21,639 nucleotides of DNA from a virus. The notes under the pieces are model-generated. The model saw nothing but the letters and a program-made list of their open reading frames with translations. It searched no databases and had not been told where the DNA came from. The stretch lies in the IMG/VR virus record IMGVR_UViG_3300002161_000040, positions 1 through 21,639 of that record; one strand, given 5' to 3'. How positions within the stretch are numbered: position 1 is the stretch's first letter; each line of letters opens with the position of its first letter. Positions 196 to 18,960 of the stretch are shown piece by piece. The translations under genes were made by a program, and so were the position numbers.

Positions 196-2052
196 TTATT
201 CTTGCGCACCAATGGCCGCGCCAAATCCCATTTGTTCAGCCTTTTTGCGCAGTGACTGGGCCAGTGGCTCGACTTTCATTATGTTGGCCTTGCCCATCAT
301 TGTTGCTGCCAACTTGGGATCAAGCATAGCCTCAACAAGCAATTGCTGAATCTGCTGATCAGGCAATTTATAAAGAAAGTCCAGTGGCCTTGTCATAGTG
401 CGCAATGTGGTGTTATCAGCCAATGACTCACTAAACACTCGGCCAATCAGGTTGCCCATGCTCATGTTTTGGAATGTGTTTGAACCAGGGGCTTTCACGC
501 CTGGTGCAGTTGCAGCCTGACCACGATTGATCTCGTTGATGATGTTGTCCAAACGGGTCTGAGCCGCTGGCGACAATTGAGTGCCAATTTCCTCTGCCTT
601 GGCGGCCACTTGCCTGCGTAATGCTGACGCTGCCAAGACTGGCTCACCCGTCATTAGGTTGGGCTGACCAGTTGTGACTTTGGCCTCGATGCCCTGCAAC
701 AAGCGCATCTGATCAATGGCACTCGATGACTTGCCATATTTCTCCATGTAGTTTTTAAAGCCTGGAGCGCCAGATTCAATGGCGTTGTCAATGACTGGCA
801 ATAGGTCTGCAAGTTGGCCTTTGGCCAGACGCAAATTGGCTTGTTCGCCTGCCAACTTGCCAGCCATGGCATCTGTGATGTCTTTTCTGACACTGTACAA
901 AGCCATTGGGTCAATGGTCCCAGTATCAGGATCAACGCGCCTAGCCAATAGACTGTTGACATAGCCCATTGCCTCATCGACTGATTTGCGCTGGGTTGCA
1001 GGGTTGGCCATGATGCCGGAAATGGCACTTGTGATCGGCTCAACGCTTACGGGTTGTTTGTTTGCAAATGCAGACTCACGCATTGGGGCAGTGATGCTGG
1101 TGCGTTTGGCTTCAGCGTATGGGATAGAGCCAGGCTGAGTTACATCGCCACCACGGCCACCAAGCCTTCTGAATGATTCAAGCAAAGCCTGCTGATTTGC
1201 AGACAATACGCTTGGGAATGCACCAGACTGGTCCAATGCGCGAATGGCAGTTTCAGCCGCAGCCAAGCCAGGATCACGCGCACCAGCTGCTGTCGTGACT
1301 CTCACACCTGGCACAAGAGGCTGGGCCTGTTGCAAATTAAGTGCTGCTTGCTCTGGGTTTGTGGCCAGTCGATTCAAGACATTGCCAACAATAACCTCAC
1401 GGCCTGTCTGCGTAAATGGCTTAACCATTGCACCAGGCGCTTCTAAGATTCTTTGTGTAGGCGAGAGCTTTGGGCCACCTGGGGCGACCATGCCTGCCAA
1501 CATTGCACCGCCAACTTGGAGAGCTGGAGGCGCGCCACCTTCGCGCAACATTCCACCAGCGCCTGATGCTGTCAATGCAGCCGCTGTCTGGGCCTTGGGG
1601 CTTTGCGCAAAGAATTGGGCCAAGTCTCTAGCCACGCCAGGCAGTCTTGGCGCGACTTCACCAGCAAGACGGGCAACACCACCAGTGCCATAACCCGCAG
1701 TAGCCACATCTTGCATGATTCGCTCTTGGGGTGTTCTAGCCTCTGGGAATCCAATGCCTGTCAATGTTCTTTCAACGGCTTGGCTTTGCGTTGGGATTCT
1801 TGTCCCAGCAGCCAAGTTAAAAAAGTTGACCATGGGATCGACCACCATAGGCAGCAGGCCACCAGCAGTCAATGCCGCTTGAGCCATGGGTCGAACAGCC
1901 ATTCCAACTTGACGGCCTAGTGTGTCTGGCGCTTGAGCTGGTGCAGCCACTGGAGGCGGCATTGTCTTTAATATTTCGGTGATCTGCTCTTTGGTCATGT
2001 CGTCAGGAAACCCGACTGGACCAACACCAATGACATTCACATATTGGGTCAT
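196..2052 (-). CDS. Putative internal virion / DNA-ejection protein (618 aa)
   Basis: This is a large Ala/Gln/Leu-rich protein with no enzymatic motif. Near the N-terminus (residues 8-30) it carries VGPVGFPDDMTKEQITEIL. This resembles the short 'F-P-D-x-M-x-x-x-x-I' element that recurs at the start of phage virion-associated proteins (e.g. FPDSMSDADI). Residues ~45-85 (MAVRPMAQAALTAGGLLPMVVDP) could be membrane-interacting, and the rest looks helical. It is the last gene of the minus-strand block, after three other large low-complexity proteins, a position typical of podovirus ejection proteins. The ATG follows the upstream stop by 9 nt, with GGTG attached to that TAA. No lysozyme or transglycosylase motif was seen. 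Family assignment is inference from style and position. Confidence 0.6.
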   Translation of the reverse strand: MTQYVNVIGVGPVGFPDDMTKEQITEILKTMPPPVAAPAQAPDTLGRQVGMAVRPMAQAALTAGGLLPMVVDPMVNFFNLAAGTRIPTQSQAVERTLTGIGFPEARTPQERIMQDVATAGYGTGGVARLAGEVAPRLPGVARDLAQFFAQSPKAQTAAALTASGAGGMLREGGAPPALQVGGAMLAGMVAPGGPKLSPTQRILEAPGAMVKPFTQTGREVIVGNVLNRLATNPEQAALNLQQAQPLVPGVRVTTAAGARDPGLAAAETAIRALDQSGAFPSVLSANQQALLESFRRLGGRGGDVTQPGSIPYAEAKRTSITAPMRESAFANKQPVSVEPITSAISGIMANPATQRKSVDEAMGYVNSLLARRVDPDTGTIDPMALYSVRKDITDAMAGKLAGEQANLRLAKGQLADLLPVIDNAIESGAPGFKNYMEKYGKSSSAIDQMRLLQGIEAKVTTGQPNLMTGEPVLAASALRRQVAAKAEEIGTQLSPAAQTRLDNIINEINRGQAATAPGVKAPGSNTFQNMSMGNLIGRVFSESLADNTTLRTMTRPLDFLYKLPDQQIQQLLVEAMLDPKLAATMMGKANIMKVEPLAQSLRKKAEQMGFGAAIGAQE

Positions 2053-2064
2053 AACTTCACCTTA
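2050..2064 (-). promoter_or_regulatory. Stop-fused ribosome binding site TAAGGTG-N4-T-ATG (copy 1)
   Basis: The TAA stop of the 486-aa gene forms the 5' end of the purine-rich SD TAAGGTG, and the next ATG lies exactly 9 nt beyond the stop. The same 15-nt architecture occurs at 3520-3534, 4934-4948 and 10100-10114. Confidence 0.7.
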
Positions 2065-3522
2065 CTGGTAAACATATTGTTTTTTGACTGGGTCCCATGT
2101 TGGGACACCAGACATCATTGGTTGTGCAGCAGGGACAGCAGTCGGTGCAGGCGCTAATGGGGTGTAAGGCTCATAAGCCTTGCCAGCGGCCTTTTGCATT
2201 CCCAATGTAACCACACGCCTAGCTTCTGCTTTTTGCGCAATCTTTTCTGGTGTATCGCCCACCATTGGGAAATAGGTCGCATATTCTTGTCGCGCCTCAT
2301 CCACACCAATGGCAGCACCGGACTCTTTGCGCAGCTTGGCGCGAATCCAGTCTTGTGCGGCTTGGTCGAATTGTTGCGTTTGCACATTTTGACTACTTCG
2401 AGCCGCTACACCACCCACAAACGGGATGGCCTCAAGAGTGCGAGTCATTGCTCCTGGTTGTGAGCCAGCAGGCAAACTGCCAATGATGCTTTGAGCCAAT
2501 TCCATGCGCTGGGCAAAGCCAGCAGCATTTGTTTCACCCTCTGTCGGCTTACCGCCAGAGACACCTTTGAGTTGTTGGCCACCAGCGCCCATGACTGGCG
2601 TGGCTGCACCGCCTGGTGCTTTTGGCACATAGGCAAAACCTTCTGGGGTTTCTCTGATCTCTGTCGCACCACGCAAAAATTCTTGTTGACGCAAGCCAAG
2701 ACCACCTTGGGCCACGGCCAAATTGCCTCTGGCCACTTGCAAATTTGCAATTTCACTTGGAGTCATTGTCTGGGCAAATGTTTCGCCACCCTTCAATGAC
2801 GACTTGTTAACAGCCACAGTCTGGCCACCAAGGTTTTGCAAGACGACATCGCGCTTTGGCCCAAAGCCTTGCATGGTCTTGATGTCGCCAGACTTATATT
2901 GCTGGACCAAGATGGGATTGCCTTTAGGGTCAGTCACCTCAAATGGTTGGCCAACAACTTCAGCCCTTGGGTTTAAATCTCTGGCAATGTCTTGATAGCG
3001 CTTTGCGTCTTCACCTTTGCCAGCTGCTGCATAAATGTCTGCGATTCTTAAATACTGACCAGCTTTAATCTCATTAGCACTTGGCTGTGGAATATTTGCA
3101 GCCAGTTCAGCACGGGCCATCGTTGGGCCAGCTTGCATACCAGGCACAGCCAAGGCTTGCATCTCTGGACTCAATGCAGTTGGTGCAGGGCCAGTCAATA
3201 CGCCAGCGACTTGCTTTTGTAAATCTTGAGCTGTTTTGGCTTCTTGGAGTTTTGCACCCAAAAGCAAATCTTGAAAAGAGCCAGCTCTAGCCTGCTGATA
3301 ACCTTGCTGGCCTGCCTGCAAAGCTGATCCAAGTGCTTGGCCCATACTGATTGGGACTGCACTTCGGCCACTGGCCTGCAATAGTGCGCCAGCTGCTGAC
3401 AGTGCCGCATTACGGCCAAGCAGTTTGCGCTGATCTTCTGTCAGCAATGCATCAAGCCCCGTTGGCACACCGCCACCGCCAAACATACTGCCTAGATTTG
3501 AAAAATCAAATTGAGTAGCCAT
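2062..3522 (-). CDS. Putative virion structural / ejection protein (486 aa)
   Basis: This protein has a Gly-rich N-terminus (FSNLGSMFGGGG), then an Ala/Gln/Leu-rich helical region (LSAAGALLQASGRSAVPISMGQALGSALQAGQQGYQQAR, residues ~40-80) typical of phage internal virion proteins. A Pro-rich, aromatic C-terminal tail ends in WDPVKKQYVYQ. There are no catalytic motifs, signal peptide or clear TM segment. Its start has a good SD (AAGGTGG) fused to the preceding TAA, and its own stop forms the SD of the next gene. Its place among four similarly composed proteins after the gp10-like tail gene suggests a virion component, probably delivered with or guiding the DNA. It could also be a minor tail or neck protein. 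I recognise the style, not a characterised family. Confidence 0.6.
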   Translation of the reverse strand: MATQFDFSNLGSMFGGGGVPTGLDALLTEDQRKLLGRNAALSAAGALLQASGRSAVPISMGQALGSALQAGQQGYQQARAGSFQDLLLGAKLQEAKTAQDLQKQVAGVLTGPAPTALSPEMQALAVPGMQAGPTMARAELAANIPQPSANEIKAGQYLRIADIYAAAGKGEDAKRYQDIARDLNPRAEVVGQPFEVTDPKGNPILVQQYKSGDIKTMQGFGPKRDVVLQNLGGQTVAVNKSSLKGGETFAQTMTPSEIANLQVARGNLAVAQGGLGLRQQEFLRGATEIRETPEGFAYVPKAPGGAATPVMGAGGQQLKGVSGGKPTEGETNAAGFAQRMELAQSIIGSLPAGSQPGAMTRTLEAIPFVGGVAARSSQNVQTQQFDQAAQDWIRAKLRKESGAAIGVDEARQEYATYFPMVGDTPEKIAQKAEARRVVTLGMQKAAGKAYEPYTPLAPAPTAVPAAQPMMSGVPTWDPVKKQYVYQ

Positions 3523-3534
3523 ATTTCCACCTTA
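3520..3534 (-). promoter_or_regulatory. Stop-fused ribosome binding site TAAGGTG-N4-T-ATG (copy 2)
   Basis: TAA of the 149-aa gene, then GGTGGAAAT, then ATG of the 486-aa gene. Spacing is identical to the copies at 2050 and 4934, which supports the chosen start. Confidence 0.75.
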
Positions 3535-3981
3535 ATCCAGTAAACCTTTGAGGCGTGTATTGACCACATCGCCTCTGCTCATCATGTTAGTTGATCCCGT
3601 ATCTGGTGCAAGCAAAGATGCAGCCCTCATGGCCCGTCTTTCCTGACCAGGCTTGATGGCCAGCTCTGCCACCGGAATGCCGCCTCTATCCATGGCCACC
3701 GCCACATTGTCAAAGCCCTTGGCCTGATCGTATGCATAGCCAAAGAGCGCCATGCCCACATCTTTCTCAGACCCTTGGTCAATGATCTTGACCTTTGCAG
3801 GGTCACTGGTGATCACAATGCCGCGGCTTGTCTGAGCCACTGTCAACCCGTCAGGAATGCGCGAGGGCATCGGTGATCCAGGCGTGATCAGGATGGTGTC
3901 ACGCTTGCTTGATGGATCAAGCAAAGCCATGAGCTGCGCGTCAGCGTAGCGTTGTGGCTCTGGGGTTGGATTGTTTGGCAT
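3532..3981 (-). CDS. Conserved-looking hypothetical phage protein (149 aa)
   Basis: This is a small soluble protein with no TM segment. It has a Pro/Gln-rich start, a central alpha/beta-like region (DTILITPGSP ~30-38, GIVITSDPAKVKIID ~54-68) and a Gly-containing motif (MALFGYAYDQAKGFDNVAVAMDRGGIPVAE, ~76-105). It ends with an Ala/Arg helix and a polar tail. I do not recognise the family. It sits between two putative ejection proteins, one base after the TAA of the upstream gene (TAATATG) and with no obvious SD, so its translation probably depends on ribosomes finishing the 317-aa gene. A virion-assembly or structural accessory role follows only from position. Confidence 0.6.
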   Translation of the reverse strand: MPNNPTPEPQRYADAQLMALLDPSSKRDTILITPGSPMPSRIPDGLTVAQTSRGIVITSDPAKVKIIDQGSEKDVGMALFGYAYDQAKGFDNVAVAMDRGGIPVAELAIKPGQERRAMRAASLLAPDTGSTNMMSRGDVVNTRLKGLLD

Positions 3982-3982
3982 A

Positions 3983-4936
3983 TTAAATTAAGGCAGCCAA
4001 TGCACCAAGACCAGCGCCAGTGCCTGCTGTCAGGCCAAGAGTGCCAGCCAATTGAGAGCCAGCCAATGCACCGCCTAATAGGCCAGCACCGACATTCTGG
4101 CTGTATGGAGTCGTTGCCACCATGCCAAGGTTGGCAGGCTGCGCACCGAGTGAAGACTGGACCACGCCAAGACGCTGGAGGCCAATGTTGCGAATCGCAT
4201 CCATTTGTTGCTGGTCCAAAGCCTGACGCGCACCACCAGCAGCCATAACTGCTTGAGCGCCACCAAGACGCAATGCTTGCTGTTGAGCCGCCAAATTACC
4301 TAGCTGGCTTGCACCGCCTAGCCTTAATTGCGCACCTTGCAAGCCTGCTTGCTGATTGGCAATGTCGGCTGCTGATCTGCGCGCAATGTCTGCCTGCTGC
4401 ATGGCCATTGCCTGGTTAAATGCTTGCTCGTTTAATGTTGTGCCAAGTGTGCCAGCCTGCTTGGCAAAGCCTGCATTGGTCAAAGCCTCGGCCACACCTT
4501 GTCGTGATCCACCAAATGCACGGGCTTGTGTGGCACGTTCACCAGTCTGCTGGATGGCAGCGCGTCTTGCTGATTCCAGATCAGCCAATGCGTTTTCACG
4601 CACCATGCTTGTGTATGGGTTCATGTAAGAGCCAATTGAGCCTGGACCTTGTCCCATGCTCAAATTGGTCTGCTGCGCTGAAATCTGTGCAGGCTGGTAA
4701 ACACCGCCATAAGCCGCCATCTGCGCGGCCAAGTCTGTGCCAGTAATGCCTGGGCCAGCAAGGCCCGTGTTGACCAGAGCTTCCTCGCCTGCTTGGTACA
4801 TCGGGTTATAGCCAGCAAACTGCTGAGTCGGCAAAGCGCCAGCGACCCCTTGGGCCTGCTGAAAGTTGGCCAAAAATGCTTCTTTGATCTGTGGATCAAT
4901 GGAGCTTGTTGAGGTTGTTGTTCCACCTTTTGACAT
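3983..4936 (-). CDS. Putative virion structural / ejection protein (317 aa), Ala/Gln-rich
   Basis: The protein opens with MSKGGTTTSTSSIDPQIKEAF, a Ser/Thr-rich leader then an amphipathic helix, a pattern I associate with phage virion proteins that follow the tail genes. The middle is strongly Ala/Gln/Leu-rich (repeated AQQQ, GGAQ, LGGAS-type segments, residues ~160-245) and probably forms long helices. The C-terminus is Gly/Leu/Ala-rich and hydrophobic (GAGLLGGALAGSQLAGTLGLTAGTGAGLGALAALI), so it could insert in a membrane. That would suit a protein forming part of a periplasm-crossing ejection channel, which is inference. The start has a strong stop-fused SD (AAGGTGGCAATATG). No enzymatic motif is seen. 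Confidence 0.6.
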   Translation of the reverse strand: MSKGGTTTSTSSIDPQIKEAFLANFQQAQGVAGALPTQQFAGYNPMYQAGEEALVNTGLAGPGITGTDLAAQMAAYGGVYQPAQISAQQTNLSMGQGPGSIGSYMNPYTSMVRENALADLESARRAAIQQTGERATQARAFGGSRQGVAEALTNAGFAKQAGTLGTTLNEQAFNQAMAMQQADIARRSAADIANQQAGLQGAQLRLGGASQLGNLAAQQQALRLGGAQAVMAAGGARQALDQQQMDAIRNIGLQRLGVVQSSLGAQPANLGMVATTPYSQNVGAGLLGGALAGSQLAGTLGLTAGTGAGLGALAALI

Positions 4937-12938: not shown

Positions 12939-13724
12939 TTAAACACCCATTTGTTTTCTTATCTTGGTTGCTGAAATGGCGTGTGTTGCATCATCAAAAG
13001 ATTCTTGTTCAATCTTGTATCCAACATCACGCCCATAGGTGATGTTAACAATATTTGGGACAAGTTGTATCTCATACTGGCCTTGATACAAAGGGTCTAA
13101 ATCACGTTTGATAAAGTCTTTGACCTGATTGGCCGCAAACGGGTTTGAGCCGTTCCAGCCCTGGCAGTCTCTGATCTGGATGACCACCTGACCCGTCTTG
13201 GCCAATGATCTCTCAAACAGCTTTCGATGGCCTTCATGCCATGGCTGCCATCTGCCCAACATCTGGACAGTTTCTTTCTGCCAATCAAAGACAGGGCGAG
13301 GGCGTTCATCCAAGATGTGGGCAGCAATGAACTCACCCCACTTTTCAGCCTTCTGCTCAGTAATCCTAAAGTCATACTGCTCTGGCGCAACAAACACCTT
13401 GTTGGTGTCTTCAAATCGGCCTTGATTGATCGTGTCTACCCAGACAGTCCAGTCAGCCTTAAAGTTGTTGCGCATCTCAACCAGCGGGGCAACAAAGTCG
13501 CAGATCACATAATCCACATCGAAGCTGTCAGCAAGATCACGCATCCGCAGACTTTGGCGAATACGGCCTTCATGGGAGAAATCCCAATCATTGTATTTCT
13601 TACGCACATCATCAGCGTTCAGCCACATGACTGTTTTATGGTTGTTTTGCAGATGCTCAAGAATATGCTGCGCAAGGTAAGTTTTACCAGCACCAGGCAA
13701 CCCCATGATTAGAATTCTTTTCAT
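12939..13724 (-). CDS. APS kinase-like domain fused to a nucleotidyltransferase domain (261 aa)
   Basis: N-terminal domain (1-145): Walker A GLPGAGKT (8-15), WLNADDVRKKYNDWDFSHEGRIRQSLRMRDLA (34-65) and CDFVAPLVEMRNNF (75-88), then VWVDT (94-98). The order and residues match adenylylsulfate kinases (D-x-x-R after the P-loop, S-P-x-x-x-R-x-like segment), which make PAPS from APS and ATP. C-terminal domain (~152-261): GRWQPWHEGH (157-166) has the HxGH-type signature, and ISATKIR (250-256) matches the ISxTxIR end motif of NadM/NMNAT-like nucleotidyltransferases. It could be an ATP-sulfurylase-like or adenylyl/cytidylyltransferase activity. The closest motif style is NMNAT, not canonical ATP sulfurylase, so the second reaction is open. 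It is coupled by ATGA to the sulfotransferase gene, which supports a sulfation role. Confidence 0.8.
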   Translation of the reverse strand: MKRILIMGLPGAGKTYLAQHILEHLQNNHKTVMWLNADDVRKKYNDWDFSHEGRIRQSLRMRDLADSFDVDYVICDFVAPLVEMRNNFKADWTVWVDTINQGRFEDTNKVFVAPEQYDFRITEQKAEKWGEFIAAHILDERPRPVFDWQKETVQMLGRWQPWHEGHRKLFERSLAKTGQVVIQIRDCQGWNGSNPFAANQVKDFIKRDLDPLYQGQYEIQLVPNIVNITYGRDVGYKIEQESFDDATHAISATKIRKQMGV

Positions 13725-14542
13725 CCCTTGACCTTATAAAGTTGTTTGATTGCAAACTCTGGAGCTGGTGTGCGCCAGAAGTCTTTGCCCGAATACTTCT
13801 CCCATACTGACTTTGGCAGAATTGACGGGCGCTCTTGCCATGTCACTTCTTTGCGTACTGTATGCAGACTCTTCATGTTCAAGGCTTTGTCAAACACTTC
13901 GTTCTCATACTCAACATTCTTGAAGTCATGGTCAAAGTAAGGCTTGCCAATAAACCCATAAATCTCACGCATCACGCTTTCGGGCTTTTTGCATAGAGAT
14001 TCATATTCCACCAACATAATCATGTCGGGGTTTAACAGTAAACCTTCTTCTAAGAAGTAATAAGGCTTGACCACTTGGCCTTCTTTCTTTACATCCATCA
14101 AGGCATCGCACCTTGTTGTGACTGTCTGCCTAGCTTCATCGTCTGTCAGGCTTGCACCATACAAAGAGTTCTTGGCAGCAATACGCTCAAAGCTGTCCAA
14201 TATCCAAGGCAAGTCACGCACACAGCAAATAATCTTTGTCTGTGGGTACAGGTCTTTTAGCAAAGATGTTTTGGCAGTCCATCCCCTGCTAGTGTCAAAT
14301 ACAGTTTTAGGACTGACAGACTCGTAGTATGCATTGACAATAGATTTAAGAATGTGCCTGCGGCGATCTTCGTCAATCAAATGGTTGCTCTCACTGCCCG
14401 TGATGACGTTAATGGTTGATGCCACCAAGCCTTGTACGGGGGAGGATATATCTGCATAGAACTCAGGGTTCTGACGCAAGATAGCCGAGAGCAAAGTTGA
14501 GCCTGAACGTGGCAAACCTGAGATGAAGAAAAACTCTTTCAT
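13721..14542 (-). CDS. Sulfotransferase (273 aa)
   Basis: A PAPS-dependent sulfotransferase by motif. The 5'-phosphosulfate-binding loop is SGLPRSGSTLLSAIL (8-22), the DTSRGW motif is at 83-88, and the 3'-phosphate-binding segment is CCVRDLPWILDSFERI (106-121) with Arg109 and Ser117. VEYESLCKKPESVMREIYGFIG (178-199) matches the usual C-terminal helix region. The length of about 270 residues is normal. It would transfer sulfate from PAPS to an acceptor, here unknown: a glycan on host or virion, a lipid or a protein Tyr. There is no TM, so it is cytoplasmic. It overlaps the downstream APS-kinase-like gene (ATGA) and the upstream fibre-associated gene (ATGA), so it is co-expressed with adhesion proteins. 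Confidence 0.85.
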   Translation of the reverse strand: MKEFFFISGLPRSGSTLLSAILRQNPEFYADISSPVQGLVASTINVITGSESNHLIDEDRRRHILKSIVNAYYESVSPKTVFDTSRGWTAKTSLLKDLYPQTKIICCVRDLPWILDSFERIAAKNSLYGASLTDDEARQTVTTRCDALMDVKKEGQVVKPYYFLEEGLLLNPDMIMLVEYESLCKKPESVMREIYGFIGKPYFDHDFKNVEYENEVFDKALNMKSLHTVRKEVTWQERPSILPKSVWEKYSGKDFWRTPAPEFAIKQLYKVKG

Positions 14543-17663: not shown

Positions 17664-18287
17664 TTATCCAAAAGTCTTTGCACGGGTCAGTAATGCACCA
17701 CCAGAAGATGCACTTCGATCATCGGCAGTTTGTGAATCATTCAAGGCGCGCTCATAGAGTGTTGCCCATGTCTGGATTCTCGCATCATCTTGCAAGTATG
17801 GTGCAGCCTGGAGCAATGCTCCATACAGATAAATGTCTGGGTTTGATGTCAAAAGCCAATTGCTTGTATTGGCATTTGATAACTTTGCCAACTTTGCGTA
17901 ATAGGTCAGTTCGGTCGTGTAGTTTGCGTCTGGTGTTGGGACTAATCTAAACTGGCCACCAACAATGCCAAAAAATTTGGGTCTGGCGCTGGCCGTGAAT
18001 TTGGTCATTTCATTGTCAAGCGCATCAATACTTAAAAACGACAATGGGGTCTGGGGGTTTGTGCTTGTGAGCTTGAGGGATTTGACCTCCAAAAAGTCAC
18101 TTGGCACTGCACCATATTGCGCATCAAAAGACGCATTGGCCCTGACGATCATCTGCCTGGTGCGCAGTGTTCGCTCAATTTGTGCCTCGGCCAGAGAGAT
18201 AAAGTCAGGAATGACAGAAGTCAGGTCCGACCGATTAAGCCAGTCGCCAATGGATGTCTTTAATTCTGCGTAAGTGCTAAGTGCCAT
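17664..18287 (-). CDS. Head-tail adaptor / tail completion protein, SU10-adaptor-like (207 aa)
   Basis: The N-terminus MALSTYAELKTSIGDWLNRSDLTSVIPDFISLAEAQIERTLR (1-42) is the signature opening of phage adaptor proteins (SU10-adaptor/gp4-like). The middle carries LPSDFLEVKSL-like YGAVPSDFLEVKSLKL (60-75) and beta-rich segments. The end has NTSNWLLTSNPDIYLYGALLQAAPYLQDD (~143-171) and a helix. It should bind the portal and connect to the tail. The frame is open further upstream to 18371, but that part would be a Lys/Arg-rich translation of a purine repeat. The ATG at 18287 has GAGG 6 nt upstream and fits the conserved start. It overlaps the glycosyltransferase gene by 11 nt. Confidence 0.78.
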   Translation of the reverse strand: MALSTYAELKTSIGDWLNRSDLTSVIPDFISLAEAQIERTLRTRQMIVRANASFDAQYGAVPSDFLEVKSLKLTSTNPQTPLSFLSIDALDNEMTKFTASARPKFFGIVGGQFRLVPTPDANYTTELTYYAKLAKLSNANTSNWLLTSNPDIYLYGALLQAAPYLQDDARIQTWATLYERALNDSQTADDRSASSGGALLTRAKTFG

Positions 18288-18960
18288 TTTTCGCCTCTTT
18301 TTCCATCTCTTTTTGCATCTCTTTTTCCATCTCTTCTTTGACAATCCAAGTGTGTGGGTGGCCAAATTCAAAAGTGCCTATGTGGCCAATTTCATGCGAG
18401 ACATCGTGGTCGATGTAGACTTTAAAGCCCAGCTCTCTGGCTTTCCTACAAAAGAACACATCTTCACCCATGTAGCCCCGTGTGGTCTGCCAAGGCATAT
18501 CAAACCATGGCTCAGACATACCCTCAAACACCTTGCGCTTGATCAGCATTATGCCCGTTCCAATGCTTCCCACCTCTTCCAATCCAGTCGAATCTGGCAT
18601 GGTAAAGACGGGGATTCGTTTGTCGTTCTCGTCATAGTTCTGGGCCGTTGGACCAGTGGGCATTCTGCGCCTGGCACAGTTGGCAGCCACAATGTCTTTG
18701 TCATGGGCCAAGAGCCTTCCCACCATGTTTTGGGGAAATGTCATGTCCGAGTCAATGAAGAGAATGTGTGAGCAGCCCTCGGCCATCGCATCCAAGCAAA
18801 GGTCAGCCCTTTGGTTTTGGAGAATCGTGCCTTGCATCAGTTTTAGACTGATTGCATCATCAGTGCTGATTGTGTGATACGCCACCATATTGACTAAGCA
18901 ATAGCAATAATTGGTGTGGACTTGATCACGGGCAGGGGTGCATACAGCAATGTAGTTCAT
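18277..18960 (-). CDS. GT-A glycosyltransferase-like protein (227 aa)
   Basis: A GT-A fold nucleotide-sugar transferase. The start is MNYIAVCTPARD, then SLKLMQGTILQNQRADLCLDAMAEGCSHILFIDSDMTFP (38-75) with DSD at 70-72 as the metal-binding DXD motif. GTGIMLIKRKVFEGM (134-148) and GEDVFFCRKARELGFKVYID (165-184) with a probable catalytic acid at E166-D167 follow. There is no TM or signal, so it is cytoplasmic; the acceptor could be a virion protein, DNA or a host glycan. The C-terminus is a charged repeat tail EEMEKEMQKEMEKEAK. The start overlaps the previous stop by ATGA. Its place in the head genes, between MCP and adaptor, suggests virion protein glycosylation. Confidence 0.8.
   Translation of the reverse strand: MNYIAVCTPARDQVHTNYCYCLVNMVAYHTISTDDAISLKLMQGTILQNQRADLCLDAMAEGCSHILFIDSDMTFPQNMVGRLLAHDKDIVAANCARRRMPTGPTAQNYDENDKRIPVFTMPDSTGLEEVGSIGTGIMLIKRKVFEGMSEPWFDMPWQTTRGYMGEDVFFCRKARELGFKVYIDHDVSHEIGHIGTFEFGHPHTWIVKEEMEKEMQKEMEKEAKNGT
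18296..18334 (-). repeat. 12-nt tandem repeat GAGATGGAAAAA at the 3' end of the glycosyltransferase gene
   Basis: About three and a half copies of GAGATG(G/C)AAAAA encode the charged tail EMEKEMQKEMEKE. The last, altered copy (GAGGCGAAAA) is the SD of the adaptor gene. Confidence 0.8.

Follow-up and report, generated by a model that had tools for sequence, protein, structure and literature searches.

A candidate non-canonical PAPS synthase encoded beside a sulfotransferase in a water-dwelling phage, and its relatives in phages and bacteria

The window analyzed in this study, a stretch of 21,639 nucleotides from a water-dwelling phage (IMG/VR record IMGVR_UViG_3300002161_000040), encodes a sulfotransferase, P0002, and a kinase-nucleotidyltransferase fusion protein, P0001 (261 aa; phrog_10255). 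Profile comparisons and a structural model suggest that P0001 is probably a non-canonical PAPS synthase feeding the neighboring sulfotransferase, the two proteins forming a self-contained sulfation module. The two-gene module itself is real and more than a chance arrangement, because relatives of P0001 are encoded on at least 597 and relatives of P0002 on at least 175 IMG/VR stretches, and the median dN/dS against relatives is 0.03 for P0001 and 0.05 for P0002, values that indicate strong purifying selection on the two genes. The role of sulfotransferases in phages has been called unclear (PMC10580990), and four virus contigs with cysC have been reported (PMC8190135). Literature searches, judged by titles and abstracts, found no description of the fusion, and on the same basis the putative PAPS-making two-domain form has not been described before.

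Gene pair and domain assignments

Both open reading frames proposed in an earlier note on this DNA were confirmed on the minus strand, where they share an ATGA start/stop overlap (Table 1), and the motifs quoted there (GRWQPWHEGH, ISATKIR, SGLPRSGSTLL, and DTSRGW) were all found as described. The same junction is present in the five relatives whose junctions were inspected. Elsewhere in the window, a gene located among head genes (18277-18960) shows glycosyltransferase-type PHROG matches (phrog_12406 and phrog_34859), and four consecutive ORFs of 618, 486, 149, and 317 aa (196-4936) have no PHROG match.

Table 1. Features of the sulfotransferase and fusion genes in the window
Feature	Position	Strand	Basis
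Sulfotransferase gene P0002, 273 aa, PF13469/PF00685	13721..14542	-	Pfam, relatives, alignment, dN/dS 0.05
5'-phosphosulfate-binding loop SGLPRSGST, residues 8-16	14495..14521	-	Alignment of 13 sequences
3'-phosphate-binding motif R109...S117, spacing 8	14192..14218	-	Alignment of 13 sequences
ATGA start/stop overlap of P0002 and P0001	13721..13724	-	4 nt, couples the two genes
Kinase-nucleotidyltransferase fusion P0001	12939..13724	-	Pfam, PHROG, AlphaFold2, dN/dS 0.03
Predicted APS-kinase domain, residues 1-138	13311..13724	-	Profile, Foldseek, conserved pocket residues
P-loop GLPGAGKT, residues 8-15	13680..13703	-	Alignment
Predicted compact NMNAT-fold adenylyltransferase domain, residues 146-261	12942..13289	-	Profile, AlphaFold2, Foldseek
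HIGH-superfamily motif GRWQPWHEGH, residues 157-166	13227..13256	-	Alignment
YGRDVGY, residues 230-236	13017..13037	-	Resembles ATP sulfurylase GRDHAG; profile does not align them
ISATKIR motif, residues 250-256	12957..12977	-	Alignment

The sulfotransferase identity proposed for P0002 was borne out. The protein matches Pfam Sulfotransfer_3 (4.5e-18) and Sulfotransfer_1 (1.2e-10), scores 66.7 bits with its family profile against a curated cut-off of 27 bits, which places it in PF13469/PF00685, and keeps both PAPS motifs (PRSGST and R109/S117). Among 13 diverse aligned sequences, G9 and R12-T16 of the loop are invariant and P11 is nearly so, as R109 and S117 are invariant too, with a residue spacing typical for PAPS-dependent sulfotransferases. 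Because these loop residues and the R109/S117 pair are unchanged throughout the alignment, P0002 likely binds PAPS.

By profile and fold, the N-terminal half of P0001 is predicted to be an APS kinase, an assignment that our analyses strengthen. It matches Pfam APS_kinase (PF01583) over residues 4-90 with an E-value of 7e-10 (39.6 bits vs a cut-off of 21.1), and stays far under the NCBIfam apsK equivalog cut-off (28.7 vs 138.7). With a profile of 75 sequences, the first PDB matches were APS kinases (2yvu, 6e-16), and the best 50 Foldseek PDB matches for the kinase domain (AlphaFold2 model of P0001, pLDDT 94.1 and pTM 0.84) were mostly APS kinases or PAPS synthetases, judged by titles. Conservation reaches 99-100% at D38, R41, F49, R54, R60, F77, and P80, which the profile alignments match to positions of APS kinases (Asp-x-x-Arg, Phe, Arg, and FxxP); all of these positions except R60 we take to be the APS-contacting pocket. 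The APS-kinase features that the earlier note had read from the letters thus recur in profile, fold, and core pocket residues, and the contrary outcome that it had named, a different P-loop kinase lacking APS-binding residues, does not fit any of the three. At the same time, the domain has Gln or His where canonical APS kinases have Asn, the profile match stops near residue 86-96, and the canonical cap motif RDxKGLY was not found in the P0001 sequence past that match.

The second domain is best described, from profile and model, as a compact NadM/PPAT-like adenylyltransferase outside the ATP sulfurylase family, in agreement with both parts of its earlier description as NadM/NMNAT-like and not a canonical ATP sulfurylase. 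NadM is its nearest relative by sequence: residues 155-211 give NadM/NMNAT matches in NCBIfam and the PDB, and the domain profile matches NadM at 4.5e-10, covering only the first ~80 residues of the domain, which is ~50 residues shorter than NadM. The NadM curated cut-off is not reached (29-30 bits vs 127-181), and Pfam gives P0001 a weak CTP_transf_like match. Within GRWQPWHEGH, the G, R, Q, P, H, G, and H residues are invariant across 68 sequences. A small HIGH-superfamily fold is predicted by AlphaFold2 (pLDDT 91.8 for the domain); Foldseek returned no match at E<=0.001, and the weaker matches comprised NMNAT, PPAT, pantothenate synthetase, and the ATP sulfurylase 1v47. Homology with ATP sulfurylase (PF01747) received an hhalign probability of 9%, and the motifs QxRNPxHxxH and GRDHAG of that family are absent from the domain, which has GRWQPWHEGH, missing the QxRN part, and YGRDVGY instead. 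A relationship to ATP sulfurylase through the GRD motif was considered and rejected, since profile alignment sets the two motifs apart.

Distribution in phages and bacteria

The two-gene order, which the earlier note had proposed to seek in related phages, is kept in 53 of the 80 loci closest to P0001, where a sulfotransferase gene lies immediately upstream of the fusion; in 17 it lies elsewhere in the locus, in 7 the upstream sequence is missing, and 3 have no sulfotransferase. Among 27 phage records searched whole, picked mainly for having no adjacent sulfotransferase, 18 contained a PF13469 match. Two genes upstream of the fusion, phages of Stenotrophomonas and Xanthomonas encode a protein with PRSRS that has a PF17784 match of 8.3e-6 in one phage and under the cut-off in the other. 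Sulfotransferase domains of sister loci often sit inside proteins of ~590 aa, which they open in L051 (473-2260), L070 (2846-4615), and similar loci. In L051, the C-terminal part of this protein matches TPR profiles only weakly and resembles no PDB entry convincingly; a glycosyltransferase reading of the C-terminal part of the ~590-aa proteins was dropped for want of a PDB match, and this part was left unassigned.

In nine sister loci (L053, L059, L062, L063, L067, L069, L071, L075, and L076), the genes after the fusion are of the CTP_transf_like, cupin, PfkB, and NAD-epimerase types and make up an ADP-heptose-like set, their families having been scanned for members of L053, L059, and L063 and the remaining loci judged by eye. 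These neighbors suggest a sugar-nucleotide pathway and, with it, a glycan target.

More distant phages present a looser association. PF03567 or PF13469 matches occur in 6 of 35 distant phage records with the fusion, and three of these six have 5 to 10 PF03567 matches each. Large phage records behind L182, L190, and L206 were seen to combine 5 to 10 Sulfotransfer_2 matches with a kinase-nucleotidyltransferase gene. Pfam searches of neighbors in 50 distant viral representatives revealed no sulfotransferase enrichment near the fusion (Sulfotransfer_2 in 2 of 137 proteins within 1.5 kb vs 4 of 138 beyond 3.5 kb), and we therefore make no claim of a general linkage across phages. Fusion and sulfotransferase are thus tightly linked in the phage group of the window and loosely in distant and large phages.

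A scan of GTDB genomes located both domains in SAR11, SAR86, SAR116, Bradyrhizobium, and others. In most SAR11 and SAR86 loci examined, the two domains are encoded as separate adjacent genes, and some SAR11 loci carry the fusion. Sulfur genes adjoin the pair in particular lineages. In 17 loci from marine Alphaproteobacteria (L273-L288 and L291), the gene immediately preceding the pair encodes CysQ, with Xsc farther upstream in those long enough to show it (representatives of both named by NCBIfam); AprM, AprB, and AprA homologs are found on three SAR11-like loci (L250, L251, and L322; AprA and AprB of L251 named by NCBIfam); a sulfotransferase gene lies 15-29 nt upstream of the pair in 5 SAR86 loci; and sulfotransferases, one of them P0002-like, adjoin it in 4 Bradyrhizobium loci. 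Many other bacterial loci examined showed no sulfur gene near the pair. A SAR11 pair also lies near GcvT/DmdA-like and MetF-like genes (L307, 4616-6695), where the DmdA identity fell under the curated cut-off (230 vs 410 bits) and was not used, and another SAR11 genome contains a second nucleotidyltransferase-domain match ~4 kb from the fusion (L269, 13113-13520).

SAR11 bacteria have been described as lacking assimilatory sulfate reduction, Ca. Pelagibacter being without cysDNCHIJ and sat according to the text of a paper whose Table 3 nevertheless includes cysC and cysQ for several strains (PMC5069961). In 46 carrier genomes we found Sat in 4, CysN over the cut-off in 8, and a PF13469 match in 37, the absences here and below being partly inflated by incomplete single-cell genomes. 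Of 158 Pelagibacterales genomes (completeness of at least 80% requested), ~127 carry the kinase and adenylyltransferase pair, that is, 136 matching at 1e-10 less 9 weak matches set aside; 119 genomes have a PF13469 match and 9 have Sat, whereas apsK exceeds its cut-off in 6, always in CysN-length frames. The six apsK-positive genomes belong to the nine with weak pair matches only, which in these six we read as absence of the pair. Exclusion between pair and apsK is significant (Fisher 3.8e-5, phylogeny ignored), and it is seen only against these six genomes: mutual exclusion of pair and Sat was rejected, as 7 of the 9 Sat-positive genomes carry the pair. Presence of the pair was not correlated with PF13469 in this order (97/127 vs 22/31, p=0.64).

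Proposed reaction and alternative explanations

In the proposed mechanism, the C-terminal NMNAT-fold domain would convert ATP and sulfate to APS and pyrophosphate, and the N-terminal domain would phosphorylate APS at the 3' position to give PAPS. P0002, translationally coupled, would then use PAPS to sulfate an acceptor, for which a phage-directed glycan of the virion fiber or the host envelope is the most likely candidate. The use of sulfate by the second domain, the glycan acceptor, and the timing of action are what we infer, and the substrate of the second domain is the weakest link of the mechanism. We put at about even the chances of a broader hypothesis, in which ATP sulfurylase activity arose once more in an unrelated protein, the NMNAT-fold domain, and SAR11, SAR86, and their relatives have in the two-domain unit the PAPS synthase that they seemed to lack, a unit that phages then acquired for their own sulfation. 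Assignment as a PAPS synthase is favored because the domain pair resembles that of PAPS synthetases and is encoded side by side in SAR11 and SAR86, because carrier genomes rarely have Sat or CysN while sulfur genes adjoin in some lineages, and because a sulfotransferase gene precedes the fusion in most of the best 80 phage loci.

The affinity of the second domain to NadM raises the question of whether P0001 could be an enzyme of NAD salvage, uniting nicotinamide riboside kinase and NMN adenylyltransferase like NadR in reversed order, with an incidental sulfotransferase neighbor. A NADAR gene adjoins the fusion in Stenotrophomonas phage Bhz60, and a NAD synthase gene lies near it in L167. We nevertheless regard this as quite unlikely, given that the kinase groups with APS kinases in both profile and fold searches, that the adenylyltransferase is shorter than NadM and similar to it in its first part only, and that CysQ, AprBA, Xsc, and sulfotransferase neighbors recur in several bacterial lineages. 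In addition, a NadD-family match is present in 151 of the 158 Pelagibacterales (127 over the cut-off), so another NMN adenylyltransferase should be needless there.

An unlikely, though somewhat more plausible, alternative divides the labor differently: the kinase would turn host APS into PAPS, and the second domain would adenylylate some other phosphate, such as a sugar phosphate, in preparing the acceptor. HIGH-type domains often adenylylate phosphorylated acceptors, and the ADP-heptose-like gene set of the sister loci would agree with such a role; those loci, however, already have a CTP_transf_like gene of their own beside the fusion. SAR11 and SAR86 chromosomes with the pair are also mostly without ATP sulfurylase, and host APS should therefore be missing, except where AprBA could form it from sulfite. 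Another reading, which we consider very improbable, is that the unit works in the reverse direction or handles sulfite and APS, using APS made by AprBA from sulfite in organosulfur-degrading hosts, and that phages carry it to boost metabolism, with no tie to sulfotransferases. The AprMBA neighbors and the distant phages that have the fusion and no recognized sulfotransferase are consistent with it, whereas aprMBA lies near the pair in three related loci only, the fusion is coupled to a sulfotransferase in the phage group of the window, and an APS-kinase domain should yield PAPS, which indicates sulfuryl transfer.

If the PAPS-synthase assignment is true, a compact, non-orthologous enzyme would explain the supply to sulfotransferases encoded by SAR11, which is among the most abundant ocean bacteria, and the published question on the role of phage sulfotransferases (PMC10580990) would become directly testable with one operon. 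Adenylylation of sulfate by the second domain, if it occurs, would mean that sulfate can be activated in a novel way, and would offer a small enzyme for PAPS regeneration.

Comparison with known systems

Homologs of P0002 with ~23-32% identity occur in cyanophages and marine single-cell viruses. The sulfotransferases of cyanophages S-SKS1 and S-SRM01 (28-32% identity) differ from P0002 in their surroundings, as no kinase-nucleotidyltransferase is annotated within the flanking 5 kb, and both phages are absent among the P0001 matches.

Among cellular enzymes, PAPS synthetases (human PAPSS1/2 and Sat-APS kinase fusions, e.g., 2gks) likewise join an APS kinase to a HIGH-superfamily adenylyltransferase, and human PAPSS has the kinase first, as does P0001. 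In P0001, an NMNAT-type domain of ~115 residues stands in place of the PF01747 ATP sulfurylase of PAPS synthetases, and the kinase cap is shorter. CysNC and CysD-CysN-CysC are presumed to share the overall reaction with P0001, sulfate to PAPS, but P0001 has neither a GTPase subunit nor a CysD-type adenylyltransferase. By sequence, NadM and archaeal NMN adenylyltransferase (2qjt and 1f9a) come nearest to the second domain and have GRxQPxHxGH in common with it. NadM carries an SGNP-type segment, in place of which the shorter P0001 domain has YGRxVGY, and unlike NadM this domain is fused to, or encoded adjoining, a predicted APS kinase.
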